DNA of 32,740 bases from positions 55,311-88,050 of the forward strand of contig NW_022985574.1 of assembly GCF_010093815.1 (NCBI RefSeq), given 5' to 3'. This document shows positions 9,441-32,740 of this stretch, piece after piece; positions within the stretch are counted from its first letter, which is position 1; each line of letters starts with the position of its first letter. The notes under the pieces are model-generated. The model saw nothing but the letters and a program-made list of their open reading frames with translations. It did not search any database and was not told the DNA's origin. This DNA comes from Pseudovirgaria hyperparasitica. Lineage: Eukaryota; Ascomycota; Dothideomycetes; Acrospermales; Acrospermaceae. Both the position numbers and the translations under genes were made by a program.

Positions 9441-10097
9441 CTATCTAGTATATAACTATTTACCGCCCTTCACGTCACCTCCTAACCCTATTAGCTAAGG
9501 TATATATAGGTCGGGTTCTATCTAAGGCTAAGTCCTAATAATTATCCCTTCCCTCTAGAAAGCTACCCTTAGTAACCTAGATTATTACCTATCTCTATAT
9601 CTCTATTCTAAGTCTTATAAGACCTTAGTCGTTCTCTACGCTTTATCTTAGATACTTACTAATATTTGCCGATCTAAGATTTATATAAGTGTTTTCCTAA
9701 TAAACTAGATTTTATCTATCTTAACTTCTTATATAGGTAAGATTACCTAATTAGGCCTAGCGTATCACGTAATGTAATTAGATAAGCCCGTGTACTACCT
9801 ATATTAAAATCTTTTCTTAGAAATATTCCTTTCTTTAAAAAACTTCTTAACTCTTTATAGAGTTTTTTAGATTATTAGGTATATTACCCGATTCTTATAG
9901 ATATAGATTTATATAGATTTACTATAATTTAGTATGATTTACGTAATTTACTAATTTTTATACCGTCCTTAGCTAGTAATAATATAGTTCGTAATAATCT
10001 GTATAAATTAGTAATAATTATAATATAGTTTCCTAAAATCTTAACGCTCTAAAGTAATCGGCGCGGAAATAGATATCTTTAAATAATCCCTATCTTA
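9441..10097. other. AT-rich RIPed flank, no gene
   Basis: Nothing coding is recognisable after the Helitron helicase homology ends. The last 200 bases are strongly AT-rich and end in the sequence that immediately precedes the left terminal inverted repeat. I interpret this as the insertion-site flank of the 22.1-kb element. Confidence 0.5.
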
Positions 10098-10141
10098 CAT
10101 TAGGAAAGATACAGCGCTCCCAAGTACTCCTAAGTACTCCC
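10097..10141 (+). repeat. Left terminal inverted repeat
   Basis: It begins ACATTAGGAAAGATAC and continues into GCGCTCCCAA. It pairs with 32,168-32,210 on the other strand: 26 of 27 at the outer end, then a looser 18 bases differing by transitions and one extra base. The single outer mismatch (A here, G in the partner's complement) fits RIP. Confidence 0.85.
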
Positions 10142-10214
10142 TAAGTATTCTTTCATCCCATTATATCTATCGGGCGGACCTACTTACTATCTATCCTAAC
10201 GGGACGGCTTTATA

Positions 10215-10376
10215 TAATTTATACTAAGTATTCCGTTTATACCAAACGTCCCGTTTATACCGAACGTCCCGTTTATACCGAACATACTAGTTATACTAAA
10301 CGTCCCGTTTATACTAAACGCACTAGTTATACCGAACGTCCCGTTTATACCGAACGTACCGTTTATACCAACGGGA
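10215..10376 (+). repeat. Left subterminal 18-bp tandem array (about 9 units)
   Basis: The consensus unit is CCGTTTATACCGAACGTC. Eight clear units run from 10,233 to 10,376 in strict 18-bp register, with a decayed ninth at 10,215. Variants are mostly transitions (CCG to CTA, CGA to TAA). The reverse complement contains GGACGTT and CGGTATAAACGG, words that recur in the array near the right end. Its position 118-280 bp from the left terminus suggests transposase-binding subterminal repeats, although the unit length is also compatible with a 6-codon repeat. Confidence 0.85.
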
Positions 10377-10482
10377 TAATTAGTACTAGTTGTTCTCTTA
10401 ATACTAATTAGCTTACTAGTACTACTTATTTACTATATACTAATCACTCTCATAGAATAAATAGTATATAGTATTTTAGCTT

Positions 10483-10527
10483 CTCTATCTACTCTACCTA
10501 CTCTATCTACTCTATATACTCTATCTA
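10483..10527. repeat. 9-bp tandem repeat, five units
   Basis: Five consecutive units close to CTCTATCTA cover 45 bases in perfect 9-bp register (variants CTCTACCTA and CTCTATATA). It lies between the left subterminal array and the end of the minus-strand gene. Possibly a low-complexity remnant. Confidence 0.7.
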
Positions 10528-10689
10528 TTTTAATAGAAGTCTCTTTTCTAAAGTAATATCTTTATCTAAAGTATCTCTATAACTCTATATATCTTATTAT
10601 TCTAAATTATATCTTTAGTATATTTAATTATAGTCTTTAAATTTAATACTAGAAAGATAGTATATAATAGAGAGTAGAGGTTAAAAATT

Positions 10690-13000
10690 AATTAGACTAG
10701 GAACTTAAATTAAATGGTACTATTCTAAGCTCTCTCCGACTATATAGCTATAATAAAATATAGTAGACCTTCCTTTCTTCTGCCTTTAGGCGGTGTCCTT
10801 TATCTATTAAAAGGTGTCCTTATCTAGAACTACCTTTGATGACCTTTTCTCCCACTAGACACTTCCCTCTATATTTCTAGTTACTATTTTTATTCTCTCT
10901 TATATTATCTATTCGGCCTCGTGGTAGTCTATATAGTTCCCTAGCTATATACTAATATCCGACTTCTCTTAAAAGTGTATACTCTTTATATATAGGTTAA
11001 AGACCCGACTTAAACGTCCGCTACCATCTAACTTTATTTTAATTTAAGTATTAGTCGGGGTAGATAGACTACTAGTTAAGGTAGCTATAAGTAGGGATAA
11101 TAAGTTAGTAATAGACTCATTTATACTACACGTATATATACTATTATTTACCGTTCCCGCGGTTACTTAGAGCGGGTCTATACTTAATACCTAAGATGGT
11201 ATAATCTTATCCGTAGCCACTACTAGTGGTATAGAACTCTCACCTATATCTAATGGCGCATGAGATGATTCGAGGTACTTATCTAACTAGTTTAGAGTAT
11301 CCGACTTATCCTTTTCATAGTAGTTAGTATCTATATAGCCTCTATAACTTTAGTATATACTTATATTACCCGATAGCTTAGACTCCTCGCTCTTATCTAA
11401 GTTATCTATATCTACTTTAGAGAAGTTATCTAGGTTATCTTTATATGGGTTTATATATATAGTATCCGGGTCGATTAGTATTAGTACTATAAATACTAAT
11501 ACTATTAGCGATTTTTAAATATAGTCGATGCGGTAGGGCGCCTAGTTCGACTAAATTAGGCTTAGCGCTCGTTATTCCTCTATATAATTTAGCACGCGAT
11601 TAGATAAAGGTATATATATATACCTAGTATTAGTAGAGAGCGTGTAAATCTATAGCGACTAAAGGACGAGTTCGGCGCCCGCCCGCTACTATATTCGTTA
11701 AGGGCATGCCTTATTATAATATATATAATAGTAATCGTAGATGGTGGGATCGGTCGGAATATACTACTATAGTACTCCTTTAATCTAAGGAATCTTAGGG
11801 ACTATAGTAGAACTAACTTTAGAGCCTTAATTACTACTAGCCCTACGAACATTTTCTAAGTTACGCTAGTATTATACTAATAATTAGTAACACGTCTAAC
11901 ATGACGTAAGTAATATATCTTTACTCCTATATATGCGTTATTACGTATTAGATTACTTATACTAGCTTTTCTCTTCTCGGCTATCTCCTAGTCCTAGTAT
12001 TCGGATACTATCTATCTAACTCTAGAGAGGAGTTAGTAACGGAAGTCTATTATATCTTCCTTTACTAGCGCAATAACATGGGCGGGAGGTGTGTTTTATG
12101 AATTATAATTAAGGTAGTAGCTACTAAGATTAATATCTCCGGCGGCTATCTAGGCTAATTATACTAGTATCCTAAAACTATCTAGGCTACTATCTAGCCA
12201 TATATTAAGGCGATCGAATACCGGTAGTAACCGGCCTAAAAACGTTATAGCGATTAAAATCTCTATTATCGTAAGGTACCGGTCTCATTTATAAGGCTAG
12301 AGACTATCTCTATAGGACCGCCTCTTTTTATAGATAGTTAGTTCCCTCTCTACTACTATTTCTCTACCTTCTTCTATTAAGCTAGATGGCTAATATAGTA
12401 GAGGAGAGGACGTAAGGCCGTTATATCCCTAGTTACTATTATAGTAGGATATTACCGTAACGTCTAAGCTATATAGGGTGTTACTACTATATTCGCTACC
12501 GGTATACCTAGACTACTAGGTTATTAGTAGATAAATGAACGCGTCGAGATAAGCTAGATATATATATATACGTTTTTTATGTCGATGGCTGTCGTGTAAG
12601 TCTCTATTATTAATGCTAATACGTGTCTACGTTGTATCGTATCTTCGTTTACCTATCCCGTTTAGTTTACTATGGTTACTAGATTGTCTTCTATTAGTAT
12701 TACCGCTACGGTAGCTAGATAGTCCCTTAACCGTCTTCCGTGTTAGAGGTCCTATAGAGAAGATATATAAGAGATTAGTAGATATTTTCATTAGTAATGG
12801 GTCGGTAACCTACTAGGCGATAATATTAGATAGCGGGATAATAACTAGCTAGTAGACACGATAAAGGTTTAGGTGTAGACTAATATAGTGTTTTTATAGA
12901 CGCGTGATGCTTACGCGTTATTATTAATAATTTTAAGCGAGCGTATATAGGAATCAAGGGGCTAAGAGCCGGGTAGAAGTCGGGGGTTAGTGGGTATATA
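10690..13000 (-). pseudogene. Unrecognised minus-strand gene relic with hydrophobic segment and acidic stretch
   Basis: The reverse complement can be read for about 770 codons with few interruptions beyond TAG/TAA. One apparent slip falls near a (TA)n tract at about 11,600. From the N-terminal side the visible landmarks are: VAVILIEDNLVTIVN (about 12,710-12,660), HVLALIIETYTTAIDIKNVY (about 12,620-12,560), FLGRLLPVFDRLNIWLDSS (about 12,240-12,180), a strongly hydrophobic SLIVLVFIVLILI (about 11,510-11,475) that could be a membrane segment, and an acidic DNLDNFSKVDIDNLDKSEE (about 11,445-11,385). I do not recognise the family. It is the only gene in the element on this strand and is divergent from the transposase, with about 260 bp between them. 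Start and end are approximate. A TGA near 13,010 suggests that the N-terminus is close by. Confidence 0.55.
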
Positions 13001-13034
13001 TCGGGCTTTCAACGGGCTTACACCTAACTTCTTC

Positions 13035-13066
13035 CGGTATACGCCTAGAATATCCGCCGTATACCG
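13035..13066. promoter_or_regulatory. Inverted repeat CGGTATACG in the divergent intergenic region
   Basis: CGGTATACG at 13,035-13,043 is matched by its exact reverse complement CGTATACCG at 13,058-13,066, with 14 bases between. It sits in the gap between the minus-strand gene and the transposase, the expected place for a shared promoter or operator. The CGGTATA core also occurs in the arrays at both ends of the element. A regulatory role is inference. Confidence 0.45.
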
Positions 13067-13259
13067 TATTATTACTATCTACTAATAATTATACTATGGT
13101 ATTTTTTCTTTATAGTAACTATACCTCGAGATGCTACGGGCCGTAGTCTTCTACTAATACTATATTAGAAAGATTAGTAGTATATACTATATAATCCGTA
13201 GGCACTATAACTCGGAACCGTATAGACGAGCACGGCTTGCTATATTACTATTATTATTA

Positions 13260-16200
13260 TAACCATTAGGCCCGTAGCTACTACTATCGACCGGGTTACG
13301 GCGCGGCTTTAGTACTCGTAGTTATATTAGTCGATAGAACTCTTTAGTTCGCTCTATTAGTATTTAGCCGTCGAGTATTAATCAGAAGTCTAAGCCTATA
13401 GAATTAGGTACTTCTACTACTAATATTACCCTATGTAAAGATACTACTATTTTCCCTAATCCTGTTTCGGACCTGGAATCTATGGACGGCGTTACTAGTA
13501 GCTATGGTACCGATTTAGTATATTAGTCTAATATATATAGTAGAAATACTATGTCTATGGCGACGAGGGCGTCTAGTACTATATATTTAACGAAAACGTT
13601 CGAAGAGGAGAGCGGTATATATATTATAGTAGACTAGAGTAGACGTGATAATCCGTCCGACGTAAGTATATATAGTCTAGGTTTATAGTAGTAACTAATT
13701 TAGTAGGCCTAATTCGGTTAATTCGATAGTAAGTTTATAGAGCGCCTTATAATATAGACGAATCGGTTTAGTATTTCGAATATAGTATACGATAAATTAA
13801 CTACTATCCTTAAATAGACTTCCGCTATACCCCCCGACCTTTTTATACTAAAATCTAATGTCGTGCGTAAGTAGTTATTATACTACCCTAAAGGGATACT
13901 GCACGAAAGTTAGTAGCGTAGCTGTGATATATTTAGCACTACTATAGTCGAATACTAGTATAGGGATCCGCTTACGTTAGTGGAATTCCTCCTTAGATAC
14001 TAACTATTCGCTAGTAAGCTCGTGTTTAAGCCGGTACGATAATTTACTAGTTTAGGCGACCGGGTATATAGTAAAGCCTATATAGTAGATGGTTAGTAGG
14101 ATATATACGCTACTATTCCGGATGGTACCGTCGTCGTCCCTATTATTTTATCTTCGGATAAGATAAACCTTACTAACCATGGTAGTAATAGAGTAGTATA
14201 GCTAGTCTATCTATCTATTTATAATCTACCACTAAACGTCCGCTTATCTAGGAGTCTACTATTATTTCTACTACTTACTCTATTACTAGTAGTTAAGCTA
14301 GAAACGGTAGCGAATCGCTTTATGTTCCATTAGGTTATAAGTAAAGTTCTAGCCCGTATATCCGCCCATGATAGAGTCGTTAACTATACTAATTATTATA
14401 TAGCGTTATAGGCTATATAGAGTACTAGAGTATTAGTATTATGTGCCGATGGCGGCTTATGTAAGTGCTATCCGCGTTTAGCTTTATATATTATAGATTT
14501 TCCGGAGTAGGTGCTTATCACGGGTGTATCCCATTAGTATATATATCTAATATATATAGTCCCTAGTAACAGACGATAGTATCTACGAGAAGCTATTACT
14601 AGTATATAGGAGTTCCGTATATACTCGTCGTTATAGAAATAGGTTTACCGTGTACGTCGCGAGTTAATAACTAATGGCTATAGTAGCGAGTATACTAGTA
14701 GTAAGATAGATAATAGGACGAGTGTACCTAGTATCTTATCGTTTTCGTCGATATCTTTCGCGCTAGTAGTATAGGGCTATTATATTCGCTAATCGGTTAA
14801 GAGTCGGTATTCTAGTAGGTGGATAGAGCCATTAGATAATTTTGCCTAGTTACTTACTAGAGTTAATATATACCGCGCGGTCGCTCCGGATATTCTACAT
14901 TAACTATATAAGGGTATATTATAACACACGTTCAATTGGATAGTCTTATATATTATTAATTAAGAGTGTACGGGACATAAGTTAAAGGGTATATTTACCG
15001 GTATACCCCCTATAGAACGAGTAAAGAAGGCGATCGATAAGCGATTCGCGTCTATTAGGGTATTCGGTCGTTATAACCTACTTAAGTATATAACTTTAGT
15101 AATATAATAGACGGGGGCGATGTTTAAGCGTATACTAGTAGTGTTTATAGTCGCGTTTAAACCGCTCCTATATCATGATTAACACTTCCTAAGCGTAGTG
15201 CGGGCGGTTATTAATATATGTATATTAGCGGCGTACTATACGCATAATATATAGATACTAGCATACTTAGAAGAGGCTATATTACGCTTAGATAACCTAA
15301 AATACTAGTTTATACTATATCGTGGAGATAAATCGGAGGATAATTATTTTAACTTTCCGAAGTTCTATACATTATCGCACCTAGTTAATACTATTAAACA
15401 CCATAGTTCGTTATATCTAATATCGGTAGAGCTACTAGAGCGATCTTATATCGTAGTAAAGGAATTATATTAAGGTTTAAATAAGAGGGAGACGTTTCTA
15501 TAGTAGATGCTAGTAGTAGACACACGCACGATAAATACTAAAATCTCTAGTAGTATAGAGGTAGCGGCTAGTACTAGTATATTAGTAGCCCCTGGCCTAG
15601 AGTAGCTCGATAATATACGTAAGCTAGTCGGCTAGCGGCGTATTCTAAAGGAGCCACGCTAGAGTAAATATACACTCTACGTCTTATAGAGCCATAGACT
15701 ATCTACGTCCTACTAGACTACCATTAGCGACCTCTACGACGTGTATAGTAGTAGTTTTATATTACTTGATACGGTTATACCCTTTATATATAACTATCGT
15801 AATCGGCTTATTAGGGATAATATATTAAAAGGTGCGAATGTTAAACATATTAAAAAGGACCCTTCGTAGGCACGGGTCCTTTCTATCTATATATATAAGA
15901 CCATGTACGTGCTAATACGACTAGATAGAGATATATCTATAGAGGCCTTCGACCCGATTTAGGTAAGGTATGCCCGTAACTAGTAAAAGAGTAGTAAGGC
16001 TAGGGAGGATTATATAATAGTATAGGAGTTTAACGAGGGTAGTAACTATCTTAACGGGAAGCGGGTTAGTAAAGTCCGTATATTTCTAGAGGTATACGAT
16101 ATGGAGAGCATTAACGTAACTAGTAGTATGGCGGCGCGATTCCTAGGTACGTTAGTTAAACTACTTAATAACTCGGGTAGAGGCAATATTAATACTATTA

Positions 16201-16650
16201 GTGGCCTTATACTATTACGTATAGCGGGTTAAAGGTCTAGTAATAAGACTTATATAATGGATAGGTTCCGTGTCTACGAGCTAGAGCATGTCCTACGCCC
16301 TATATAGATTATATTATATTAGTTAGTTACGGATAGTTTATTCTAGTTAAATACGTATAGTAATTAGGGGATCTATAATAAGGTATATAACCTAGACTTC
16401 TAGGCTATGAATAGACGAAACGTGACCGTAGCGTTAAAACACGGGCGCGTGTCGTAAGTCTATCGCTATCTACTACCGCCTACCGTAGTATACCGGCATA
16501 TACCGGTATATAGCGGAAGTTATAGTTTATATATAGTAGTACTTAATAGTCGTATCCTATACTAGGATATCTCTAAGGAATAATCGTGGTTTATTACGAT
16601 CGGTTCTATAAAAGGCTTATATTTAATAACTATCTATAATTTTAGCTAAG
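13260..16650 (+). pseudogene. Plavaka-type (KDZ/CACTA-related) transposase relic
   Basis: Frame 3 is followable for about 1,130 codons without an indel. An N-terminal GFSTRSYISRQ near 13,300 resembles the second half of a C2H2 finger, a common N-terminal feature of these transposases. Core landmarks, in family order: VYSKAYIVDGW at about 14,070-14,095; VVPIILSSDKINLTNHG at 14,136-14,185 (family VIPLILSSDKTHLT); IDFPE-VLITG at 14,493-14,525 with one stop inside; PDILH-LYKGIL at 14,886-14,921 (family PDVLHQLYQG); NFPKFYTLSHLVNTIKHHSS at 15,351-15,410. A C-terminal stretch ending WFITIGSIKGLYLITIYN (about 16,590-16,640) fits the usual length of about 1,000 residues. Most stops are TAG/TAA from Gln or Trp codons. 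The protein would recognise the terminal and subterminal repeats and catalyse excision and insertion. The family call rests on motif memory, not a search. Confidence 0.75.
16491..16515. repeat. Palindromic CCGGCATATACCGG cluster
   Basis: The sequence ATACCGGCATATACCGGTAT holds two overlapping CCGG-centred half-sites (CCGGCATA and ACCGGTAT), similar to the GCCGGTATATAACGG units near the right end. It falls inside the 3' part of the transposase frame, so it may simply be coding sequence. Confidence 0.4.
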
Positions 16651-17689
16651 GAGTATCTAGGGATGCACCTCCTTATTACCTAATAATTACTAGCTAGTAT
16701 AAAAACTCTACGCCTCTAAAAGGGGTATATAGAACTTAAAGGATCCTTATTCACGGGTAGAACTAGACGCGGATAGTATTAACCTAACATAGATAGATTA
16801 TATATATTAATACCCTGAAATCCGAACTATGTCTCTAGGTCTACTAGACCTAGCTCACACCCGATTCTAATGTTTTCGTTATTCGCGTTTATGCCTCGTT
16901 GGATACCGGGCATATAACGAGTCTATAGTTAAGTAAGTATTAGGTACGTAACGAGTCTATTAATAAATGAGTACCGGGTATGTAACGAGTCTATGTAAAT
17001 AAGTGTAAATAAGTATATACTAGGTATATAACGCTCTTACCAGGGAAACGTCTTCCTTAAGTATCTCCCCCTTCTAATATTTCTCCTTCTCTTTCTTTAT
17101 TCTTTCTCTAGCCTTATAAGTATAGTTAGACTTATATCGCTATATTATTAATGTGTACGTTCTTATATAGACCGTTAGAAACTACGGTAACTAGATATAT
17201 ATTCTCGTGATAGATAAATATACCGCACTAATACGTCGTATTATTCGTGTTTAATATAAGGGTTTACTACTACGATCATTCGTCGTTACGCTCGTCTATC
17301 TCTTCTTAACGATAGTACTAATTAATAACGACCTATTATAGAGATAATAGTTAGCATTACGTACTTCTCTTAAATATTTATATATTAATATTATATAAGT
17401 ACATGCTTCGCGGAGGTCCTCTATCCTTCCCTTAAGCTATCTAGACTATCCCCTAATCGCTAAAAACTCTTATATCTAACTATTTCTACTATTTATTCCT
17501 CGGTTCTACTCGTTAGGCTTCGAACGATAGCGAACTATAACGGGTTAGCGGTTATCTATATTTCGCGTACGCCGAGTTAGCATGCCTGAATATAATAGAT
17601 GATAGTGTATTTATAATAGTATATACTAGATCTTATAGTATTTCTCTTTGGCGGTAGATCCACGTAGTCGTAAAGACGGCCTACTATCC
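16651..17689. other. Intergenic stretch between transposase and next gene relic
   Basis: Besides the 34-bp repeats at 16,905-17,040, I see no convincing reading frame or RNA gene. Pyrimidine-rich DNA at about 17,050-17,110 follows the repeats. Confidence 0.4.
16905..17040 (+). repeat. 34-bp direct repeats, four units
   Basis: Units begin at about 16,905, 16,939, 16,973 and 17,019 and share the core GTATATAACGAGTCTAT (variants GCATATAACG, GTACGTAACG, GTATGTAACG). The spacing is 34, 34 and 46 bp, the last unit being offset by an internal GTAAATAAGT duplication. They lie immediately downstream of the transposase, where a terminator or 3' regulatory array could sit. The function is unknown. Confidence 0.7.
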
Positions 17690-19620: not shown

Positions 19621-20130
19621 CTATGAATATTAGTATAATATCGGCTCGATAGTACGTATTATAGTATAAGGTAAGTTATATTTAAGCGGTAGTTAGACAC
19701 GTGCGCTAGTATACTAATAGATATATAGTATCTCTACCATGAATAGAATAGGCAAGGCATGGCTAGTAATATCTTACTACCTAGAAGAGATAGTTACCAT
19801 AGAATTTAGAAGATAGGCTCGGCGTCTATGGCGTTAGTGTGTCGGACGGTTGAACTTTCATATAATACTATTTACTTATACCTATATTCACCTAAGCCCC
19901 GATTCGATAGCCTTCTATAATATACTATATACTTGGTTAGCGAGCTACTAGACTCATATAATAGTAGTATACTACCCTACTTTATATACTACTTAAGCTA
20001 CTATTACTTTAGCCTACGTTAATCTTAGCTTCCTTTAGTCGTCCCTATATTATAAAAGAAAACTTCTATAAACCTTTCCTCTACTTATCTTGGTTTTTAA
20101 ACCTAAATCTTACCTTCTATACTTTATTCC
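19621..20130. other. Gap between gene relics; possible extension of the upstream frame
   Basis: Frame 1 stays partly readable to about 19,850 (for example MASNILLPRRDSYHR near 19,765), which may be the C-terminal end of the preceding gene after a TGA at 19,622. Beyond that I see only AT-rich DNA leading into the helicase gene. Confidence 0.35.
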
Positions 20131-20295
20131 GTGTTAATTACGACTATATATAAACGCTACATCGAACTCGACTCTATTAACCCTTAAGGTCCATTCTATA
20201 TAATAGTTAACAAGGTTATATTTATAGTTCATAATATGGATTAAGAACTCGTTATATTCGGCGATGTTTAGGACTAGTCTACGCTCGACGTAATT

Positions 20296-20619
20296 AAGCC
20301 TTACGTTTAAGCCGAGTCTCACGTTTAAGTCGAGCCTTATATTTAAGTCGAGCCTTATACTTAAGTCGAGCCTTACGTTTAAGCTAAGCCTTATATTTAA
20401 GTTAAGCCTTACGCTTAAGCCGATCCTTACATTTAAGCCGAGCCTCACGCTTAAGCCGATCCTTACGTTTAAGCCGAGCCTTACGTTTAAGCCGATCCTT
20501 ACGTTTAAGTCGAGCCTTACGTTTAAGCTGATCCTTACGTTTAAGCCAATCCTTACGTTTAAGCTAAGCCTTACGTTTAAGCCGAGCCTTACGTTTAAGC
20601 TAAGCCTTACGCTTAAGTC
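20296..20619 (+). repeat. 18 x 18-bp in-frame array encoding [E/D/K]-P-Y-V-x-[A/V]
   Basis: Exactly eighteen 18-bp units, consensus GAGCCTTACGTTTAAGCC, run without a break in frame with the downstream helicase. The fifth codon is TAA in all eighteen units, most simply a Gln CAA converted by RIP. The inferred protein unit is E-P-Y-V-Q-A with D, K or N at the first position and I or A at the fourth. The minus-strand reading (RLGLNV-like) is only a shadow of this array. Confidence 0.9.
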
Positions 20620-23600
20620 GAAGCTTATAATATAACTACCGTCTTAACCGATAATAAACCACTCGTCTTTAGTATACTTACTAGTAACTACTATTCTAAC
20701 GACGAGTATAAACTCAAGAAGGTCCAAAGTAGTAAGGCTCCCGTTCCTACTTATACTACCTATTAGATCTCTCTTATATAGAGCGATCTATAGTTAACCT
20801 TTGGGAATATCTATGGTATTAGTAGAGAAATAGATGGACTTAAGTAGGAATAAGCAAAAACTTAAGCCGAGCTTAAGCTAGTAGTATTTAAGACTCGTGG
20901 TAAAGGTCACGGCTTCGAAGAGTCGATTAGTTATATATATAGATTCCTTGAATTCCCTAAGTACCGCTCTTAGATTAAGTTACGTACTCGCTTCTAATGG
21001 ATTAACAAAGGGAAATTAGTATCCTTAATAAGCTTACTCCGCTTTAATCGTACTAATATCCTTCTATTATCCGACTACCCTACGGTATAGATCTTTAAGG
21101 TTAAGTAAGTAGGCGACTTCATCGAGTATTTTTCTAAACTTCCTAATCTTATTATAAGTGAAGCGGATAAAGCTAATATACTATATATTAACACCGGCCT
21201 CTACGAAGACCCTCGCGACTTTTAGATTATCGAACTTATAGCTAGCGAGCTTCTTAGTATAGGTTTTACTATTCTATTATATATCGGACCCGATATAATA
21301 TATAAACGAGTAAAGTAATTCTTCGAAGATCTAGTTGCTTATACTATAGTTCGTATCTTGCTACCGCTACGTAACCCTATGGATCTTACCAGCTTTAATA
21401 ATAAGCTTAAACTAGAGAGCGATCTAATTAATTCATGGTATATAGGAGTTACTACTCTCTATATATAATACGGCATAATAAGTAGGCCGGATAGTTGGCC
21501 CTAGATCTCTATTCTCCACCGCGAGTCATTCGATAAGAAATTTAACTACCTAATATATATTACTATAAGTACCTTGTAAGACGAATAGGCGGATCTCCCA
21601 TTATTCTAATTCTAAGACGTTACTATTAGGTATATCTAGCTCTTAGGTGTTACTCGGGCGCTCTTAGCTATCGTCTATCCTATTAATGCGAAAGGATTCT
21701 ATCGCATAGAACTAGGTAGTCGTAGGTACCTTAAAGTGGATTTAAAGGATTATAATAACGATACGTACCGCTTTAAAGTCCTTTAATTTCGCCTAGGCGT
21801 TCTTCTATTCGAATACCTCGCTCTAAAAGTCTTTAATAAGGTTAGGCGTCCTCCTAAAGTACCTAAGGTACCGATTATATTAATGGATGCGGTTACTAAT
21901 ATAACTCGAGCTCGTCCTAAATATTTTATTCGGACTAGCGACACTAGTTTAAGTACGATTAGGTCGTCTCTTACTACGCTTATAGGGTTTATAGACGTTC
22001 CGGCTTTAGTTAGCGTATAAACCTACGATAAGCTTACTAAGTAATATATTAATACGTGCTAGAAACTAACCTACCACGCCGTATAAGCTTCTAGAGACGG
22101 CGGCGTAGACGACTACGCCGCTTAGGATACGTTTAATACGATGGTCCTTAATATTATCGTAGACTTAGTGTCTATGTCTCTAATATATAGGTCCCCTAAC
22201 CCTAACGACGAGATTCTAGATTATAGTATAGAGCCTTAGAATACTCTCGTTACTCTTTCTAAATTATCTATATCCCTAGATAATAATAAGGACACGAATA
22301 TAGAATATAGTCACGATGTTATTAGCGACGAAGGTTCTATTACTAGCCCCGTCGCCGATATACATACACTTCTAATATCGTCCAAAGTCCACTCTAGTAT
22401 TCTATCCCCTTTGCCACCCTCTATATAGGATCTAATACTCGGTAATAACTATCTAAATCTTTAACCCGTCGACTACAACCGCTACGTTAAAGATTATGAA
22501 AGATTCCACGATCTCTAGGATATTATACGTTCGGAACTATCTCCCTAATAATAGTATATCTATATATAGGCGACGGACGTACTTAGGGCTTAGTTCCTAC
22601 TTCACGGCTATAGAGGAGCTAGGAAGAGCTATTTATAGCTTCGTCTACTACTAGCTATACTTCTAATTAATAAAATAAACGGTGCTTCTATTATCGCTTA
22701 TACTACTAAGGTAGTTATCCTATCTAGCGATGTAATAGCGCACCTCCCTACGCCAGGTTCCACCTAAACATATAGAATATATATATATGTTATTATCGGC
22801 CTAACTAACGAAACCTACGACGACGCTATAAGAAAAGCATATAAATATATAAGTAATATATTTACTTACTATAAGTCTCTAAAGATACCGGTTATTCTTC
22901 GAAGATACCCCGAAGCCGTTAATTAAGAGGTTTTCTTTACTATAGCTAGACTATCTCGTCGCGGCGACCCTCTTATTAGGCCAACCTAGAACGATGTAAT
23001 AGGCGGTACTATCCTCGCGTAAGCCTAGGCCGACTATAGTAAACGACTATCAGAATATAGCACGGATCCCCGTGCTCGTCTATGGGAACTATATACCGGT
23101 TACGTTACGCTCGAGGTCGTTAGACTCGTTAAATCTCGATACTAATATAAATAGATCTCTAAGAATTTCGAGAAAGAAACGGCTCGGCTATTACGCGCTA
23201 TCTATAAACGTTACGCTTATAATAAGGACATGCCTAAGAAGGAGTATAATAGGATGAACGAGCTATACCTCGCTACCTAGGACCTAGTTACTATCTACGC
23301 CTAGATTTATATAGGGACCCTATATGTTATGAATATCGCTAAGGTAGTCTATAATATATATCCGATTTTAGTCGTGATGGAAGAGGCTACGTGTATCCTT
23401 AAAAGTAATACACTCGGGATTATCGTTAATTATACTACTATAGAATAGTAACTAACATTTATTTACGTCGGCGACCTACGCTAGCTCGATACCTACTAGC
23501 GTAATAGTACTAATATATAGGCCGCGAACTAGAGGATCTCCTTTATAAAGCGCTAGATATAATATAGTTTCCTAACTACTCGCCTTACTAAGTTAGAACG

Positions 23601-24618
23601 CTTAGTTCCTAGGATAATAAACGTTATATCGCTAATTACTTACTCGGGCGAGCTAACGACCTCGCCCCGCATAATGAATAATATTAATATACTACTCGTA
23701 GAGACCGTTTAATAAATATTTAGAATCCGCGGCTATTAATACGTCGTATACGCTAACATTAACGGGGATCACGCGCACATAGTAAATAACTTAATATATA
23801 ATATAGACTTATTACGTTTCACTTAGTAGATTATTACTAAGCTCTTCTATTATAGCGTTATACTCGATCACGTACTCTATATTTCTATATACGCCGCCTA
23901 ACGTAATCTGTTTAAAGGGATGGTTAGGAACTCGCTTCTAACTACACTTACCGCAGTAGATAAAGCTCGATTTAATGCCCTACCTAAGCCGGTATAGAAG
24001 CTTGTCTAATGGCGTTCATGGGACGGTTCTTAGAGTTATAATAACGATATAGTCCTTATTAACCCGGTCTAAACTAATCGCTTTGGCTTCCTCTCGGAAG
24101 TAAACTATAACGTTATTACTATTACGCGCGCTAAATAGATAATAGTTATTATTACTAACTTCGTATCTCTTAAGAGGTAGAAAGTCCTAGACGGCGTACT
24201 TGGCGAGATATAGAATAAGTACTCTAAGATTCATGCAATATACACGTGCACGACCCCCGACCTAGATAGCCTCCCTCTACTCTCTAACATACCTAATCTC
24301 TAATATAGTCGCCCTATACTTAGTGTTAGAGAGAGGGGAGAATAAAGTAATTAATAAACTACCGATAGTACTAAGCCCTATAAGCCGCTGGTCTACCGTA
24401 AATATAACGTCGAAGGATATAAGTCTATTAAGTATCTAAGAGGGTCGACGCTTACATGTAATAACTATTAGGACATCGGCCATAAAGCTAATGTTTACTC
24501 TAAACCCAAGACGCTTACGGGTACGTTTTACTATAATTATAGGACTACCGGTTATACTTAGTGTTATTATCCTAGCCGCACTAAATTACTAGCACGTATA
24601 AATAGTAATAATCCAGTT

Positions 24619-24702
24619 AATACTACTAGAGCTAATACTACTAGAGCTAATACCACTAGAACTAATACTACTAGAACTAATACTACTAGAGCTAATACTA
24701 CT
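24619..24702 (+). repeat. 15-bp in-frame repeat encoding N-T-T-R-A
   Basis: Five full units of AATACTACTAGAGCT (two with ACT in the fifth codon) and a partial sixth follow the zinc knuckles in the helicase frame. They would give a basic, Asn/Thr-rich C-terminal linker. Confidence 0.85.
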
Positions 24703-25200
24703 AACGAAGTAACTACTAGTAGCTAGGACGATAGAGACTACGAGGATGCCGGCCGAGACGGTAGTATTATAATATATAAAGATATAGAAGTTAATTAGTA
24801 ATAGTATACAATTAGACTTACGTGTTAGGGCTACTTAGTTACGGCTTCTTAGTAAGTATACCTCTATATCCATTTTAGATATAGTCATGACATCCTACTA
24901 GGTAGATAGTTTAGCTCTATTAAAGACCTATTAAGGGTATTTCTATTACGTCTACTCTAGTATAGACGCGCTATTAGATAATACGGCGCTACTAGGCATG
25001 TTAACTAGTACCTACTAATTAAGAAATAAACACGATTCTATATCTACCGCGAGCCCCGGCCTAATAACGTAGGCTTCCTTTAGTTATCCCCTTTATACTT
25101 TTAAAACTACTTCTAGTCTTTATATCGGGAGATATTACCACCTAAAGAGAAAATATAAAAAAACATACGCCCTAATTAAAGCCTCTACCTTTAGACTTTA

Positions 25201-25789
25201 ACCATGATATATACGGGATATAGTAAACCTAAATATCGCGTACTTTAAAAGTATGGAAGGATACGATACTTAAATACGACGAAATATAGGCTTATAATAC
25301 TCGGAGAGTACCTAGGGATAAGCACATGAATATAAAATAGGATAAGACCAATGTGGCACCTTATACATGTATGGCCATATACCGTTCTAGATGTAGTTAC
25401 CTACGATATAATATTACGAGATAAGAATCATGGCTATCTAATTCTATTAAGGGTATTAGACGACATGAAGTAAATAACTACACGCCCGACCACGCCACGC
25501 TAAGTTACATACGTGTTATAAACGCGTGTTCGAGGAATAATAAGGATATAAATAAGGTTCACCTAGTAGGTGCCTCGTTATTCCGGCTTCTACCTCTATT
25601 ATCCGATCTATACCTCCGTCTTCCTCGCGTCTATGATATACTACGTATATACTATATAATTAGTCTATAAATTATAAATACTATATTAACTATATACGTT
25701 AACTACATACGATTAATATATTAAATCCGATTCTATAACAAAGTAACCGTCCGAATATAGTAATTACTATAGTACTACTTCGCATCTTA
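25201..25789. other. Gap between helicase and next gene relic
   Basis: The helicase frame remains patchily readable for another 100 bp. After that I see no convincing coding frame, and no repeat stands out. Promoter sequence for the next gene may lie at its 3' end. Confidence 0.35.
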
Positions 25790-27010
25790 AGCCTAGATAT
25801 ATAAGTAAAGCGTGAAGCTATGGAGGCGCGTGTAAGGTAGCTATATATAGAAGTATATACGGCTACTCTACTCGTAGACCATAGACGTTAAACTAAGAAC
25901 GAGCTTAGCGTAAAAAGAGCACGTGAGATTATTAATAAGGTAGCGGGCGAATTCCTAGTAGTATAGGAAAGAGTAGTAGAGTATATAGAGATGAAGGCGC
26001 TATACTATATCTACGACTAGGTACGCACTATAGTATAGAAAACCGTATATTATAGAAAAACTATCTCTAAGTGTAAGAAGAGGCGTGTAATTATAGCTCT
26101 ATATCCTATGACCTTATAATCCCCGCCTATCACGACCTTATAACCTCTATCTATCGCGACCTTATAACCCCCGTCTATCACGACCTTATAGCTCTCGTAT
26201 ACCACGACCTTATAGTCTATACTCGTAGCGGTCCCATAGCCTACTAACGTATATACTATAAGAAAAATTAAATTCATGATTAGATTCGACGATAACGCAT
26301 TCCTTAAAATACTAGTACCTACGTCTAACTAGTGGAAAGACTATAGCGACGCTTCGTGTATTAATTTAGTAGTATTTATACGGCGAATTAGGGTCTAATA
26401 CATAACGAAGACTAGGAGGGTACTTAACTAGAGCCGTACTACCATGCATTCTATCGTGCTAGTAGTTAAGTATATAATAAGTAAAACGGAACTAGAGGTA
26501 GATATTAGATGGCTCCTATAGTTAGTAATTAAATATATCCTAGAATATAGTAATAGTATAATACTCCTCGGCCTTAGATAGAATATAGATAGTATACCTA
26601 AAGTAAAACGAAATATAAACCAGCGACTAACACATGATAGTATAGACGGCTATATATAGATTACGCTTGAATAAATCCGCCCCTCCGTCCCTAATACTAC
26701 ACTTGCTACGATTAGTATAATAATAGTAATAGAAAGCTACCGTCTACGATGGTAGAGATACCTACGGAGATGGTATTATAGGTAGTAGATAGCATTACCT
26801 AAACGACTTAACCCTTCCTCTAGCGATACTATATATACTACTATCGGCACCCGGGAAGTCGCGAGACTAATCTATAAGCTCTAAAGATAGTAACTTCGAA
26901 AGCCTTAAAAGTACCTTAGATATAGAGGATATGGATATCGCTTTTAAAGACTAATAGGATAATGAAAAGGGTGCTAGAGGTAGTGAGAGTGGCGTGCGTA
27001 CTTGGCTAAG
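25790..27010 (+). pseudogene. Unrecognised gene relic with 8-residue T-x-L-x-P-x-S-I repeats
   Basis: Frame 2 is readable from about 25,790 to 26,885, then frame 3 to 27,009, giving about 405 codons with one indel near 26,885. The N-terminal part is charged (SVKRAREIINKVAGEF near 25,906-25,955) and leads to a basic stretch ISKCKKRRVII near 26,063-26,095. Four and a half 24-bp repeats follow. A globular-looking region comes next: KIKFMIRFDDNAFLK near 26,264-26,310, TMHSIVLVVKYI near 26,440-26,475, LLGLR near 26,570. The C-terminal tail is acidic (LDIEDMDIAFKD near 26,915-26,950). I recognise no family. It lies tightly between the two helicase-type genes on the same strand, so it may be a partner of one of them. 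Confidence 0.5.
26108..26225 (+). repeat. 24-bp in-frame repeat, about 4.5 units
   Basis: Units starting at 26,108, 26,132, 26,156, 26,180 and 26,204 share the core ACGACCTTATAACC plus CTATC. On the plus strand each encodes T-L-x-P-P-S-I-T, where x is TAA/TAG (probably Gln). The minus-strand reading (GYKVVIDG-like) is an open shadow because RIP stops fall on the plus strand. Confidence 0.8.
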
Positions 27011-27050
27011 GTAATGCGATCCGACGTAAGACGGCTTCTATCTACTATAT

Positions 27051-27180
27051 ATCGGTATATGCCCGATTCTACTAGCTATATAACTATGGCGTATATATTC
27101 GGTTAAGACGTTATAATACTAGTATAAGCCGGCGTCTACCTAGTTCACGTCGGGATACGCCCGGTTCTACTAGCTATATT
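27051..27180. repeat. Two 30-bp direct repeats 98 bp apart
   Basis: GCCCGATTCTACTAGCTATA at 27,061 recurs as GCCCGGTTCTACTAGCTATA at 27,159, each preceded by a CGGTATA- or CGGGATA-like word. The pair sits in the short gap between two gene relics and may be part of the promoter of the downstream gene. Confidence 0.6.
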
Positions 27181-27239
27181 ATTACTACGACTATAATCGT
27201 ATAAGATCTACTCTAATAATTAAATATTTACTTATATAC

Positions 27240-30200
27240 TTTACTTCCTCCGTACTTATTAAAATTACGTTATAATTACTAAACGCGGTAACTTAACTTC
27301 TACCGCCTAAATCTAGTTTTTATATCTTATTACCATTAACGCCGTCTTACTATCTATGGCCTAAGTCGTATATAGGAATAGATAGGTATAATAAGAGTTA
27401 CGACTATTCTAGTTTAACTACCGGCTATAGAATAGCTAACTATAATACGCATATACGACGTACGGAGGCCTTAAGCGTTAGCGCCCTTCTACCTTATATC
27501 TAGTACCTCTAAGGCCTATACCTAATACCCGAAATAAGTTATAATATATATAGGGCTACCATTATTAAGATAGTAAGTAAAGAAGTAGTAATAGAGCTTG
27601 AAACTAGTGGCATAGACACTACTATACTCTATAGGATAGTTAAGGAAACCGTTACTAGAGAATTTAATTGGCATATCGCGGCTATAAATAGTAAGTTAGT
27701 ACCGACGGTTACGACCATAGATATAATAGAGACTAAACTAGATATAGATACTATAGGCATAGGTACGTAGATATAGTTACCGCTAGAACATAAGGAGAAA
27801 GATAATATAGAAGATACTGAAATGGAAGACGACGTAGCTAGTATGCTTAGACACATATATATACACACGGTCCTAGATACTAACATTAGAGTAGTATCGA
27901 ATACAGGCGCGGTTATGACTACCGACATAGATAATCTACCTATAAATATCGTCGTGCCTAGCGAAGCTTATCTACGCGTAAACATACTAGCTATAGAGAT
28001 ATAGTTATAGTTACCGCTAGAATATACGGAGAAAGAGAACGTGGAAGATACTAAAATGGAAGACGACGCAGCTAGTATACTTAGACACATATATATATAT
28101 ATATATGGTCCTAGATACTAATATTAGAGTAGTATCGAAGATAGGTACGGCTATAACTACCGACATAGATAATCTATCTATGAATGTCGTCGTGTCTAGC
28201 GAAGCTCATCTACGCGTAAACACACTAGCTATAGAGATATAGTTATAGTTACCGTCGGAATATACGGAGAAAGAGAACGTGGAAGATACTAAAATAGAAG
28301 ACGACGTAGCTAGTATACTTAGATATATATATATATATATGGTTCTAGATACTAACATTAGAGTAGTATCGAAGATAGGTGCGCCTATAATTACTAATAT
28401 AGATAATCTACCTACGAATATCGTCGTGTCTAGCGAAGCTCATCTACGCGTAAATACACTAGCTATAGAGATATAGTTATAGTTACCGTCGGAACATACA
28501 GAGAAAGAGAACGTAGAAGATACTAAAATAGAAGACGACGTAGCTAGTATACTTAGATATATATATATATATATATAGTCCTAGATACTAATATTAGAGT
28601 AGTGTCGAAGATAGATGCGCCTATGATTACCGATATAGACAATTCCCCTACGAATGCCGTTGTGCCTCTAGATACCGGCGAGACTTATCTATAGCTGCTA
28701 GAAATAAAGAGGACACTCTCGGATAATATAGTAAACCTAGTCGATTCTCCGAAACGCCTAAAACTAGAATATATTATACTACTAGATATCGACTAGTAGA
28801 CACGTAAAAACCAGGAACTATTCGGGTTAGTAGATAATTTATATAGTAGATATATATCGGATAGTATATTAGCGAATAGCCTTAACTTTAAAATCCTTTC
28901 TATAGACGATAACTCTAACGGAGATGAAGTAAAGCTAGATATAGAGGACTTAATTCCGGTAGATAACGATGTTAGTACGAAACTATAGGAAGCGTAAGTT
29001 ATACTAAGAAGTAAGTAGGAATATATACTACCATACTAATGTACCTATAGAATATTCGCCGTTAATAACTCTAATAAAGTAGTCTAAGCTATCTCTTATT
29101 ATACGGAAGAGATGCGGTTACTTACTATAAGTATATTTAGGCTTGCGCTAGACGACCTAATAAAGGAGTTCGGCCATATACCTACTCTATATCTAGCCTT
29201 TAGTATAAGTGGGTTATATAGGCTATAGGCCGGCTAGTTACTCACGGTAGTTACTATGTTTAAGTAGCGGGCGGGTCTATGGAAGTACTAGATCTTAGTA
29301 GATAGCCTAGGGCTAGAGAAGATAATCGTGCTTATAACGTTCATCCGCCTCGCGTTTTATTAGGACTTTCTACGCGATAACATAGAACTTAATCTAGGAA
29401 ATTACCTATAACCGACTTAAGACTCGGGCATGGATAGGAAGTGCCTAATATAATCTCTGTATCCGATTAAATATCCGTGTAGCTAGACCAATGATTTTGT
29501 CTATGTGCCCCGCCTTTAAGGACTATTTATACTATACTACCTAAGGTCCCTTCTAATAGCGCATTAGCCGTAGCGCTTTAAATAGATATATAACGATATA
29601 GATAGCATGTTTACCGATTAAATTAATAAACGGAACCCGATAAAGATAATAGTGCGGCTAGCGTACTCGAAAACCCTTACTAACGCCTCTAGTATCCGAT
29701 AATTCTCGTATATAGACCGATAATACTTAGCTAAGAGATGCCTACACCCCGAATGGGAACATAGCGTCGATATTAGTAATACTACTAAATTCAAGACCGA
29801 CGAGGAGTATATTATTAGAGCATGGTCGATTCCCGTTAATAGAACCGCTACTACTAAATTTCCGTCGCGATACGCGAAGAACCATATAATCTATAGTACC
29901 GTCTAGAGTATGGAACCCTAATATCTTAAATCTTTTAAGGGACGCGTGGTTATAAGAGTAAAGAGAGCGAAATAATTTAGTACTAAAAATACTTAAACTC
30001 GCGAAGTAGTATTCCTTAGTATATTAATAGTAGACGAGTTCTATTCCGTAAAGAACCCCGATATAAAACAGTATAAATATACGATATATAATGCCCTTAT
30101 ATTTAGTATATAGGTTAGTATAACGCCCCTCTCGAATAGTCTAGTAGATATTCTAGCGGCTATCGAGGTAGGTGCTCCGGATAAGTTACCTAACTATATT

Positions 30201-31527
30201 AACGATAATACTACTAAAAGGGTATTCGAGAGCCTATAGAATAAAACTATAAGGAAGATTATTATAACGTGGTCGAATAAACTCCTTAGTTTAATAAAAG
30301 GTAAGCTGGTAGATACGATGGCCGCGATAGTCCGTAGGGCATTAGAAACCATAGAAGGTAAGCGTATACTACGTATGGTAGCCGATTAGTATTTACTATT
30401 CGTTCTATAACGGGAACTACTAACTAAATGGTTTAACGGAGAGGCATGTCTATCTACGATATCAAAGCTAGTAGTAGAGTTTATATCCGTCCCGGCTATA
30501 GAACTAGAGAAGATAATTATACGGTTATACGAGAATAGAGGTAGATAGTTTAATAATCTATAGTCTAACGGAACGCCGCGGGACTCGTAGGTATAATCTA
30601 CCGCCTAGAGTAAATCGAAAGGGGGTACCGGGTCCGGGCTTAACGTATACTACTATTAGGCTAGGCTAGCTACTATATATATACTACTTATATACCTTAC
30701 TAATAAAAAGATAGAAGACGAGTAAATTAATATCACGCTTACGCGTCGGAGGGATAGTAATAATAGTATACCGAGTAAGATAATTACTAATCCCGTACGC
30801 GAAGCGCTTCTATAGCTAGATAAGGCTATGCGAAAGGAGATAGTATTACTAGCTAATAAACACGCTTCGAAGGTAAACTAGATCCGTAACTTTATTAATA
30901 ATAACGTTTATAATGAAAGTACTAGACGCGCGCGACGAACATCCGCCGACCGCCTAGAGAAAATCGTACTTATATGTGCCGTACCGGCAAGCTTAATATT
31001 CCTATACTTAGTAAGTGTTTATACTATCTACTAGTAACGTAATTTACTAATATATATAGGTACTATATCCATATACACAAGCGAAAATGTTAGTATATTT
31101 ACTAGCCGGCCTAAGTACGTCCGAATTAAATAAGATATATAGATTATTTAGGTCGACTAAGTCGGATTCTCTATATATTCTACTAGTATTAGCTTCGTAG
31201 GTCTGCGAAGGACAAGACCTAATAGTCGCCGGTTTTATAGTATTAGTAGACTAATACTTACGTAAGGAGACGTGGCCGTAGGCAAGTATAAGATATTATC
31301 GCCATGGATAATATCGGCCTATAGTATATATATATACTTTGATTTTAGACTATTTAGAGGTCGAGGCTAGACTCGCCGCGTTAGGTAAGGTAATCGAAAG
31401 CACGAGGACATAAGCCTTAGACCTAGAAAAAGGAGATATAGCTACGGTAGAGATAGCTATACCTAATATACTAGTAATAGGCGTATACTTTAATCCTATA
31501 GAGATATAGTAGCATAGAAGTAAGTAA
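27240..31527 (+). pseudogene. SNF2-type ATPase relic with four 78-residue N-terminal tandem repeats
   Basis: About 1,430 codons, mainly frame 3. An N-terminal region (SYIGIDRYNKSYDYSSLTTG near 27,366) leads into four tandem 78-codon repeats (27,777-28,700). The ATPase follows: motif I VDSLGLEKIIVLITF at 29,298-29,342 (family ADxMGLGKT; Gly and Thr mutated, Lys kept at 29,319); motif II VDEFY at 30,030-30,044 (family DExH, His now Tyr); motif III SITPLSNSLVDIL near 30,118-30,156 (family SGTPLxNxLxEL). The C-terminal motif VI ASIRYYRHG-YRP at 31,282-31,320 (family QAxxRxHRIGQxRPV) and the downstream EVEARLAALGK lie in frame 1, so one indel lies between about 30,900 and 31,190. SNF2 proteins translocate on duplex DNA and remodel chromatin or strip proteins. 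The stop is near 31,510-31,527. It is the last gene before the right subterminal arrays. Confidence 0.75.
27777..28700 (+). repeat. Four 234-238-bp tandem coding repeats, each with an internal (TA)n tract
   Basis: Copies start at 27,777, 28,011, 28,249 and 28,483 (lengths 234, 238, 234, then a diverged end). Each encodes a unit with KEN-EDT-x-EDDVAS, VLDTNIRVVS, TDIDNLP and LRVN-LAIEI. The tract between CTTAGA and the following TCCTAGATAC/TTCTAGATAC is 19, 23, 19 and 21 bases in copies 1-4, giving shifts of +4 and +2 that cancel downstream. The two short open frames at 27,822-28,004 and 28,279-28,476 are pieces of copies 1 and 3. Confidence 0.9.
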
Positions 31528-31660
31528 GGTAGTCGGTTAATTAGCTTCTAAGAGACTAGATAGCATGGTAGTATAAATACGAACCGCTGTTTACTCGTGA
31601 TTACATGTCTATATATATCTATACGTGAAGAGAAATAAGATATTTATTCTATACCGTTAT
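31528..31660. other. Short gap between last gene and right subterminal arrays
   Basis: No feature seen apart from short TA tracts. The 3' untranslated region and terminator of the SNF2-type gene would lie here. Confidence 0.3.
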
Positions 31661-31975
31661 ATAGTAGGACGTTACTATATATACCGGCATATAACGGAAT
31701 GTTCCGACATGCGCCGGTATATTATAGGATATTCCTAGATACTCAAAGTATAGTCATAGTATAAAGTAGTATTACTATTATATGCCGGCATATAGTAGGA
31801 CGTTACTATATATGCCGGTATATAACGGGATCATGTTCTAATATACTATACGCCGCCGGTATATTATAGAATATTCCTAGATACTTAAAGTATAGTCGTA
31901 ATATAAAGTAGTATCGCTATACTATGCCGGTATTTAGTAGGACGTTACTATATATGCCGGTATATAACGGGATTA
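31661..31975 (+). repeat. Right subterminal direct repeats (about 131-142 bp, 2.3 copies)
   Basis: Copies begin at 31,661, 31,792 and 31,934 (the last partial), each opening with TAGTAGGACGTTACTATATA and then GCCGGTATATAACGG. The full copies share a second half containing GATATTCCTAGATAC and AAAGTATAGTC. The words GGACGTT and CGGTATA-AACGGGA are those of the left array read on the opposite strand. Position 235-550 bp from the right terminus suggests transposase-binding subterminal repeats. Confidence 0.8.
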
Positions 31976-31985
31976 AACGTTTTCT

Positions 31986-32172
31986 TAACGTTCGATAGAA
32001 CGATTCTAAAAGAACCGGGACGGCTCTAGGAGAACTAGAACGACTCCGGGAGGACTAGGACGACTCTAGGAGGATTAGAATAACTCTAGAAGTACCGGGA
32101 CGACTCTAGGAGGATTAGGACAACTCTAGAAGTACCGGGACCCATTTAGGATAACTTTAGAAGTACCGGGAG
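31986..32172 (+). repeat. Right-end 20-bp minisatellite, about nine units
   Basis: 20-bp units such as CTAGGAGAACTAGAACGACT run in register from 32,006 to about 32,125, with a decayed unit at 31,986 and offset units out to 32,172. Two variants partly alternate (CTAGGAGGATTAGAAYAACT and CTAGAAGTACCGGGACGACT). The array abuts the right terminal inverted repeat. The left end has only a short counterpart (AAGTACTCCTAAGTACTCCC at 10,122-10,141). Confidence 0.8.
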
Positions 32173-32210
32173 ACCTAGAAGCATTGGGAGCGCCGTATCT
32201 TTCCTAATGT
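32168..32210 (-). repeat. Right terminal inverted repeat
   Basis: It ends GTATCTTTCCTAATGT. Read on the minus strand it begins ACATTAGGAAAGATAC, as does the left repeat at 10,097. The outer 27 bases (32,184-32,210) match the left at 26 of 27. Confidence 0.85.
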
Positions 32211-32740
32211 ATATACGTTACTAATATATTAAAAGCCATTAATCTACCCCGACCTAGGCCGGACTCTAATAATCTAGCTATATATTATTATAGTTATTAC
32301 TTTCCGTCGTATATTACTTACGGTAGTACTAAATCTATAATATATAGTACTTATATAACTAAGAAGCGTTATTACTTATAGATATTTAAGTAAGTTTAAA
32401 GAACTTTACGCCGATTTACTTATATTAGTATAGATTACTACTAGGCCTCTAGTAACCTCTACTAATAAGGAGTATAGTACTACTAATCGCAACGCGTTAG
32501 AGAAGGCTTTCTATAAGCTATATATCTAAGGTAAGGGTTACGCCTAGAAGTATAATTCTAATAAGATCTATAAGGATTTATTAGAATCTACTATAGCTAT
32601 TATTACCGCGATTACTAGGTAATATTATTTTTCTTAAATTATTATAGATTCTTACTAATATATATTAATCTCTATAATAGTACTAAAATCTCTACCACTT
32701 CGGACTTCTTTCTATATACTAGCGATATTAAAATTCCTAG
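32211..32740. other. Heavily RIPed right flank with a short coding-like remnant
   Basis: Base composition returns to the AT- and TA-rich, CA/TG-poor state seen left of 10,097. On the plus strand, frame 1 from 32,392 to about 32,640 gives a coherent stretch (EKAFYKLYI, then KYNSNKIYKDLLESTIAII) broken by TAA/TAG, probably part of an older transposable-element protein that I cannot name. It is presumably the continuation of the repeat into which the 22.1-kb element inserted. Confidence 0.4.

Follow-up and report, generated by a model that had tools for sequence, protein, structure and literature searches.

A multi-copy 22.1-kb DNA transposon of the Plavaka lineage in Pseudovirgaria hyperparasitica, with an SF1 helicase gene and a probable SNF2-type gene between its termini

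Can a cut-and-paste transposon of 22 kb carry, besides its transposase, motor proteins of its own, and what would these do for it? The question is raised by a stretch of 32,740 nucleotides from Pseudovirgaria hyperparasitica (hereafter the window, C26:55311-88050; contig labels of the C1, C2 type belong to the genome of this fungus, examined as 35.0 Mb in 59 contigs). Cut-and-paste elements are generally thought to depend on host functions to open chromatin and for repair, and a reading made from the letters alone (the sequence-only reading) had described here a 22.1-kb DNA transposon with near-perfect inverted termini, carrying a Plavaka-like transposase together with SF1 and SNF2 helicase genes. 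DNA transposition is reported to become less efficient once the cargo exceeds about 6 kb (PMC6431247). We find that window positions 10098-32209 are one copy of a multi-copy 22.1-kb DNA transposon, and that DUF6532, SF1 and SNF2-like genes moved with the transposase as one unit through several insertions. For the locus as a whole, a 22.1-kb cut-and-paste transposon of the Plavaka lineage that carries DUF6532, SF1 and probable SNF2-type genes is the best explanation and, in our judgement, a highly probable one.

The two ends of the element are defined by terminal inverted repeats (TIRs) at 10098..10124 (plus strand) and 32183..32209 (minus strand), which agree inversely at 26 of 27 positions, or at 27 of 28 when the flanking TA is counted; at 27 bp they are shorter than the 45-bp repeat first described. 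They form the sole pair of 27-mers lying more than 3 kb apart that match inversely with at most one mismatch (within 9501-32740), and no chance counterpart arose in 20 first-order shuffles. Searching the genome with the left end retrieved 20 places, 19 of which include the terminus, and the right end retrieved 21 places (36 rows, 15 being inverted self-matches inside the same places). In the window the TIRs are flanked by the two copies of a 2-bp target site duplication (TSD), TA at 10096..10097 and at 32210..32211. For the ten left/right pairs that could be formed, the TSD is identical over 2 bp in all ten and over 3 bp in none (TA six times, AA twice, TT and CG once each), while mismatched left/right pairs, used as a control, agree over 2 bp in 32 of 90.

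The insertions can also be read from sites that lack the element. When the window flanks are joined with a single TA, bringing 10,097 next to 32,210 as the sequence-only reading had proposed, at least 40 matches run through the joint (126 candidates, 40 scored), up to 93% identical and the best of them gapless. As the joined flanks match contiguously at these places, the window element lies inside a repeat of which at least 40 further copies exist; the matches are paralogous empty sites. Termini arising by chance are ruled out by the shuffles, the unique TIR pair and the empty sites. The window empty site at C6:106724-106949 follows directly on the right end of the element copy in C6, and the single empty site of that C6 copy is found in turn at window 9646..10043 (375 of 398 positions identical, gapless), within the older host repeat into which the window element was inserted. 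Since each one's empty site adjoins the other, the C6 copy and the window copy struck the same repeat; this shared target (window 9646-10097 + 32210-32320) hints at a preference for silenced repeats.

Copies of the same length and gene order, free of repeat-induced point mutation (RIP), were an expectation of the sequence-only reading that held in part within this genome: the C14 copy is collinear with the window over 22,108 bp (710 of them N), with main pieces 92-94% identical and about 0.5 kb absent relative to the window, and neither an un-RIPed copy in this genome nor an intact one among those scored was found. Within this one genome, both the collinear copy and the empty sites thus bear out what the sequence-only reading had proposed to look for. 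Window and C14 differ at 1,474 of 21,051 aligned bases, of which 1,189 are of RIP type (under a lenient definition), 269 are other transitions and 16 are transversions. CpA and TpG are nearly missing from the window flanks, the mark of RIP, and CA+TG reaches 29.9 per kb inside the element, whereas the 10.1 kb of left flank have 5.9 and the 0.5 kb of right flank 5.6. The abrupt change of mutation load claimed for the two ends is thus real as a contrast in CA+TG, but the step beside the left end is smaller, with 13.0 per kb outside and 23.0 inside over 1 kb. The copies in the assembly have been broken by RIP, the fungus's own genome defence.

A transposase relic on the plus strand, read in one frame (13350..16300, limits set by eye), points to the Plavaka lineage. 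Its Pfam core, at 13938-14534 and 14835-14942, matches the Plavaka transposase domain PF18759 with E 4e-32 (112 bits, cut-off 26.3), in agreement with the transposase first described; the C14 copy reaches E 1.5e-34 and the genome search returned 25 rows. The many in-frame TAG and TAA codons are probably products of RIP, because RIP makes such stops from Gln and Trp codons. PlavakaB transposases are recognised by the residues D, D and E with C(2)C and H(3-4)H, and in the translations we could read by eye SSDK, DGG, H-ALS-H (in C14) and ELLE, the expected Cys pair reading Tyr, as RIP would yield. Among 40 termini of the family, CATCAGG is read at the C9 left and C14 right ends, CATTAGG at 21 of 40 ends and further-changed forms at the rest, and since CATTA from CATCA follows the direction of RIP, we take CATCA as the ancestral terminus. 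Described PlavakaB elements have termini CATCA..TGATG and a TSD of 2 or 3 bp (PMC12730594), and the present element resembles them in its Plavaka transposase, its CATCA..TGATG termini and its 2-bp TSD.

Judged by these sequence features, the element belongs to the Plavaka (PlavakaB-like) lineage and is thus grouped with CACTA/EnSpm and not with KDZ (Kyakuja-Dileera-Zisupton). The grouping of KDZ, Plavaka and CACTA used in the sequence-only reading has been superseded, Plavaka having been moved from KDZ to the CACTA/EnSpm clade (CMCT) according to PMC12730594. KDZ elements are fungal DNA transposons formerly placed near Plavaka, with a different transposase and a TSD of 8 bp (Zisupton) or 7 bp (Kyakuja; PMC12730594) versus 2 bp here; no PF18758 match was found in the window frames scanned, and a KDZ assignment was rejected. 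Its size and cargo genes in what is probably a filamentous ascomycete could also suggest a Starship or other cargo element instead of a DDE transposon, which we consider extremely improbable and, with no match to the DUF3435 tyrosine recombinase inside the element, ruled out: DUF3435 (the captain domain) is absent from the window frames scanned, and TIRs, a 2-bp TSD and a Plavaka transposase are found instead. The only DUF3435 matches in the genome are three pieces at C28:181920-183279, with a single stop between them.

Beside the transposase, and in addition to what had been described before, the element carries a minus-strand gene with a DUF6532 domain (PF20149) at 11649..12092 (profile match E 1.2e-7). 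All nine DUF6532 matches in the genome lie 2.27-2.29 kb from the Plavaka domain of these elements, and no host copy of DUF6532 was found in the genome at that search sensitivity. Both PF18759 and PF20149 are among the domains reported as additionally found in two Ganoderma species (PMC8955403), a co-listing that fits a shared element without showing one. Six long gene relics had been proposed in the element, and we could assign four, to DUF6532, Plavaka transposase, SF1 and SNF2-like genes; two stretches, at 16.4-20.2 and 24.7-27.4 kb, gave no convincing family, and Pfam matches there and in their C14 counterparts do not go below E 0.08.

The third gene, on the plus strand at 20101..24700 (limits by eye), is a relic of a DNA2/NAM7/UPF1-like helicase, and its identity as an SF1 helicase is solid. 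Its AAA_12 domain lies at about 23596-24159 in the window and scores 27.9 bits in C14, or E 5.7e-10 when stops are read as Gln/Trp. The UPF1-like helicase with zinc knuckles of the sequence-only reading stands as regards the helicase, AAA_12 being found in ten other copies, while a CCHC-like knuckle near 24450-24570 was read by eye only. The 24 rows of the AAA_12 genome search comprise 10 RIPed copies of the element type, all flagged above the cut-off (one only with its neighbours), and 14 others, of which 13 are stop-free. The distance from AAA_12 to the transposase domain is 9.6-9.9 kb in six of the ten copies, 15.1 kb in two and 33 kb in one, the C6 copy being without a transposase match. 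A search with the SF1 protein returned 43 rows, comprising two diverged relics, two host-like matches (C2:597279 and C10:989826) and otherwise copies or pieces of the element gene. Two copies have the gene interrupted, C9 by about 5.3 kb and C11 by about 8.1 kb, which is close to the length that these copies have in excess (27.8 and 30.0 kb). An end at C10:986440 was considered together with the nearby SF1 match C10:989826 as one element and rejected, the SF1 match lying outside that end; since it lies beyond it, we take this match as a host gene. RIPed SF1 relatives lacking the other markers are only a few (C4:1060362, C15:836941, C24 and C40), and two stop-filled relatives without other markers nearby, C4:1060362-1062578 (49%) and C15:836941-839280 (45%), perhaps represent related element families.

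The fourth gene is probably, to judge from the motifs in its translation, an SNF2-type ATPase. The first lobe lies on the plus strand at 28800..31010 (start set by the query), with motif I near 29292, motif II near 30030 and motif III near 30123; a candidate 49-nt intron (31011..31059, plus strand, GTAAGT ... CTAAC-type branch ... AG) would join its frame to that of a second lobe at 31060..31494 (plus strand), where motifs V/VI were read by eye only. The genome search returned 25 rows, with a main subfamily at 82-89% protein identity, a diverged one at 55-62% and fragments at 70-88%. When 16 copies were aligned as translations, motifs I (LVDGLGLGK in some), II (VDEFH..KNP) and III (TPLSNSL) appeared in order, which supports the earlier SNF2 claim as probable; profile support is weak and comes from 6 of the 16 copies. 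A hidden Markov model (HMM) of host SNF2 matched nine other copies weakly, each in the frame expected (best full E 0.019), but neither the window nor reversed controls, and hhalign of lobe 1 with four host SNF2 open reading frames gave E 0.0088 with a probability of only 4.6. A weak match in PDB was to CHD1L (E 0.23), over SNF2 motifs II-III; PDB searches with single frames gave no match and those with profiles nothing meaningful, and in a PF00176 scan of the whole genome no element copy was among the matches listed. SNF2 relics with several stops also occur near contig ends (C10:16947-17501, C3:2316127-2316672, C2:20396-20956 and C1:3413454-3413618), three of the four at about profile positions 50-180, and perhaps belong to another, subtelomeric repeat that includes an SNF2 gene.

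Are these genes parts of one element, or was a helicase-bearing element inserted into a Plavaka element and then co-amplified? The order left end, transposase, SF1, SNF2-like gene, right end, orientation included, is the same in seven copies (C26, i.e. the window, C14, C20, C9:352k, C11, C30 and C34); C7 has all five markers with the transposase piece inverted, and the remaining copies are without one or more markers. At 19 of the 21 right ends, all but C8 and C52, the region covered by the SNF2-like query stops 1.15-1.31 kb short of the end. The helicase genes were not seen as separate single-copy loci outside the termini in this genome, apart from the few RIPed SF1 relatives named above, and RIPed SF1 and SNF2-like relics recur inside elements. 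What speaks for nesting is that the right-hand 5-6 kb acts as a module: between window and C30 there are nearly only transitions in 19.8-26.6 kb and many transversions in 26.6-31.1 kb. Recombination between related elements explains this module better, and the common marker order, the near-constant distance of the SNF2-like gene from the outer right end and the lack of another near-perfect inverted pair of 27 bp within the element (there are pairs that are weaker or rich in A+T) make nesting very unlikely. In the five copies whose SNF2-like gene is diverged, the right end is diverged as well, matching no more than query positions 1-434 at 75-78%, and because both diverge in the same five copies, the right end and the SNF2-like gene appear to have been exchanged together.

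Several observations weigh against a Plavaka-lineage transposon with this gene content. The CATCA terminus rests on two of 40 ends, from which the ancestral form is derived. The TSD boundaries of three of the ten pairs (C20, C30 and C8) presume a terminal C turned T, and three pairs span 41-63 kb (C34 63, C7 62 and C8 41), so other DNA is included. The AAA_12 match of the window has E 6e-6 and 26.3 bits, just below the cut-off of 27, and the window locus is missing from the genome list. For the SNF2-like gene, PF00176 matches 6 of 16 copies (best E 0.0016), and the window alone gives no Pfam match for this gene; lobe 2 has no Pfam, PDB or host-HMM profile match, a reversed control even scoring higher, and structure prediction of lobe 1 from the 16 copies gave a mean pLDDT (predicted local distance difference test) of 31.8, too low to be of use. 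The 102 fixed transversions between its subfamilies (12 versus 4 copies) fall at codon positions 33/32/37, without bias, and 8 of them are synonymous versus 17 expected (16.7%), so that purifying selection is not seen. Finally, stops are present in 25 of 25 Plavaka, 25 of 25 SNF2-like and 9 of 9 DUF6532 rows, so activity cannot be shown, and for the same reason the role of the helicases is one that we infer.

For the Plavaka-lineage transposon that we prefer, the DDE transposase would, as expected from its family, recognise both the 27-bp TIRs and the arrays next to them by binding and cut at the CA/TG ends, inserting with a 2-bp stagger, of which the duplication is observed. The motor proteins would most likely serve the element itself: the SNF2-like ATPase may open silenced chromatin or load transposase on ends that lie far apart, while the SF1 helicase may act in strand processing, replication or transcript handling, RIP having later broken the copies present in the assembly. 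That both proteins take an active part in transposition or in evading silencing, with the SNF2-like gene co-evolving with the right end as an exchangeable module, is a tentative proposal to which we give somewhat less than an even chance. The SF1 and SNF2-like genes may instead be passengers, captured once from a host and carried along without a role in transposition, a reading that is doubtful though far from negligible. Gene capture by transposons is known (PMC6431247), the SNF2-like transversions between subfamilies lack codon-position constraint, and reading frames are not preserved throughout, as window and C30 differ by indels of 1, 19 and 6 bases at 27.0-28.2 kb, upstream of the SNF2-like core, and of 36, 2, 1, 15 and 2 bases in the SF1 region. 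By contrast, the indels in 28790-31130 are of 9, 36, 9 and 3 bases, all multiples of three (a 96-base gap at the end of the alignment was set aside as an end effect), which is suggestive of frame keeping for the SNF2 core only; the SNF2-like gene is present in both diverged subfamilies and diverges jointly with the right end, as a functional pair might.

How does this element compare with known systems? The PlavakaB elements described in the passages covered (PMC12730594) are from Agaricomycotina, some with a TET/JBP gene, whereas the window element has 22 kb, DUF6532, SF1 and SNF2-like genes and a RIP-mutated genome around it. Enlarged EnSpm/CACTA elements of the red alga Chondrus crispus are likewise CACTA-related, with 16-20 kb and 4-5 ORFs, in another kingdom (PMC6431247); these and the TET/JBP genes were already known, so that relatives do not carry as little beyond the transposase as had been supposed. 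AcademH, KolobokH and Helitron also encode a helicase, yet they are other transposons, and their domains are Helicase_C, DEAD and PIF1, not SF1 AAA_12 and SNF2 with a Plavaka transposase (PMC10799480). In the passages of the Plavaka literature covered, including those of PMC12730594, PMC8955403, PMC8290104 and PMC11075540, we found no Plavaka element with such helicase genes. A Plavaka family that spread as a unit of 22 kb to about 20 places, and whose four or more genes include two for motor proteins, would allow one to ask whether an element can itself encode help for moving long DNA or for escaping silencing, and would extend PlavakaB, termini included, to a RIP-active ascomycete genome. 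With its termini, TSD and gene order now sufficiently defined, intact relatives can be sought.

Two kinds of repeats complete the description. Subterminal arrays are present at both ends, as 18-bp units at 10218..10388 on the left and as 142-bp and 20/40-bp units with internal inverted repeats at 31712..32141 on the right; they had been described as inverted, but they are different sequences and not mutual inverted copies (longest exact common match 12 bp), and genome searches with the left-end and right-end queries did not recover the opposite end in either case. Within the genes, an 18-bp repeat coding a hexapeptide array occupies 20297..20621, in the N-terminal part of the SF1 frame, and a 234-bp (78-codon) tandem repeat of 3.7 copies occupies 27768..28643, in the upstream part of the SNF2-like frame, so that both frames hold whole-codon tandem repeats upstream (18 bp x 18 and 234 bp x 3.7).

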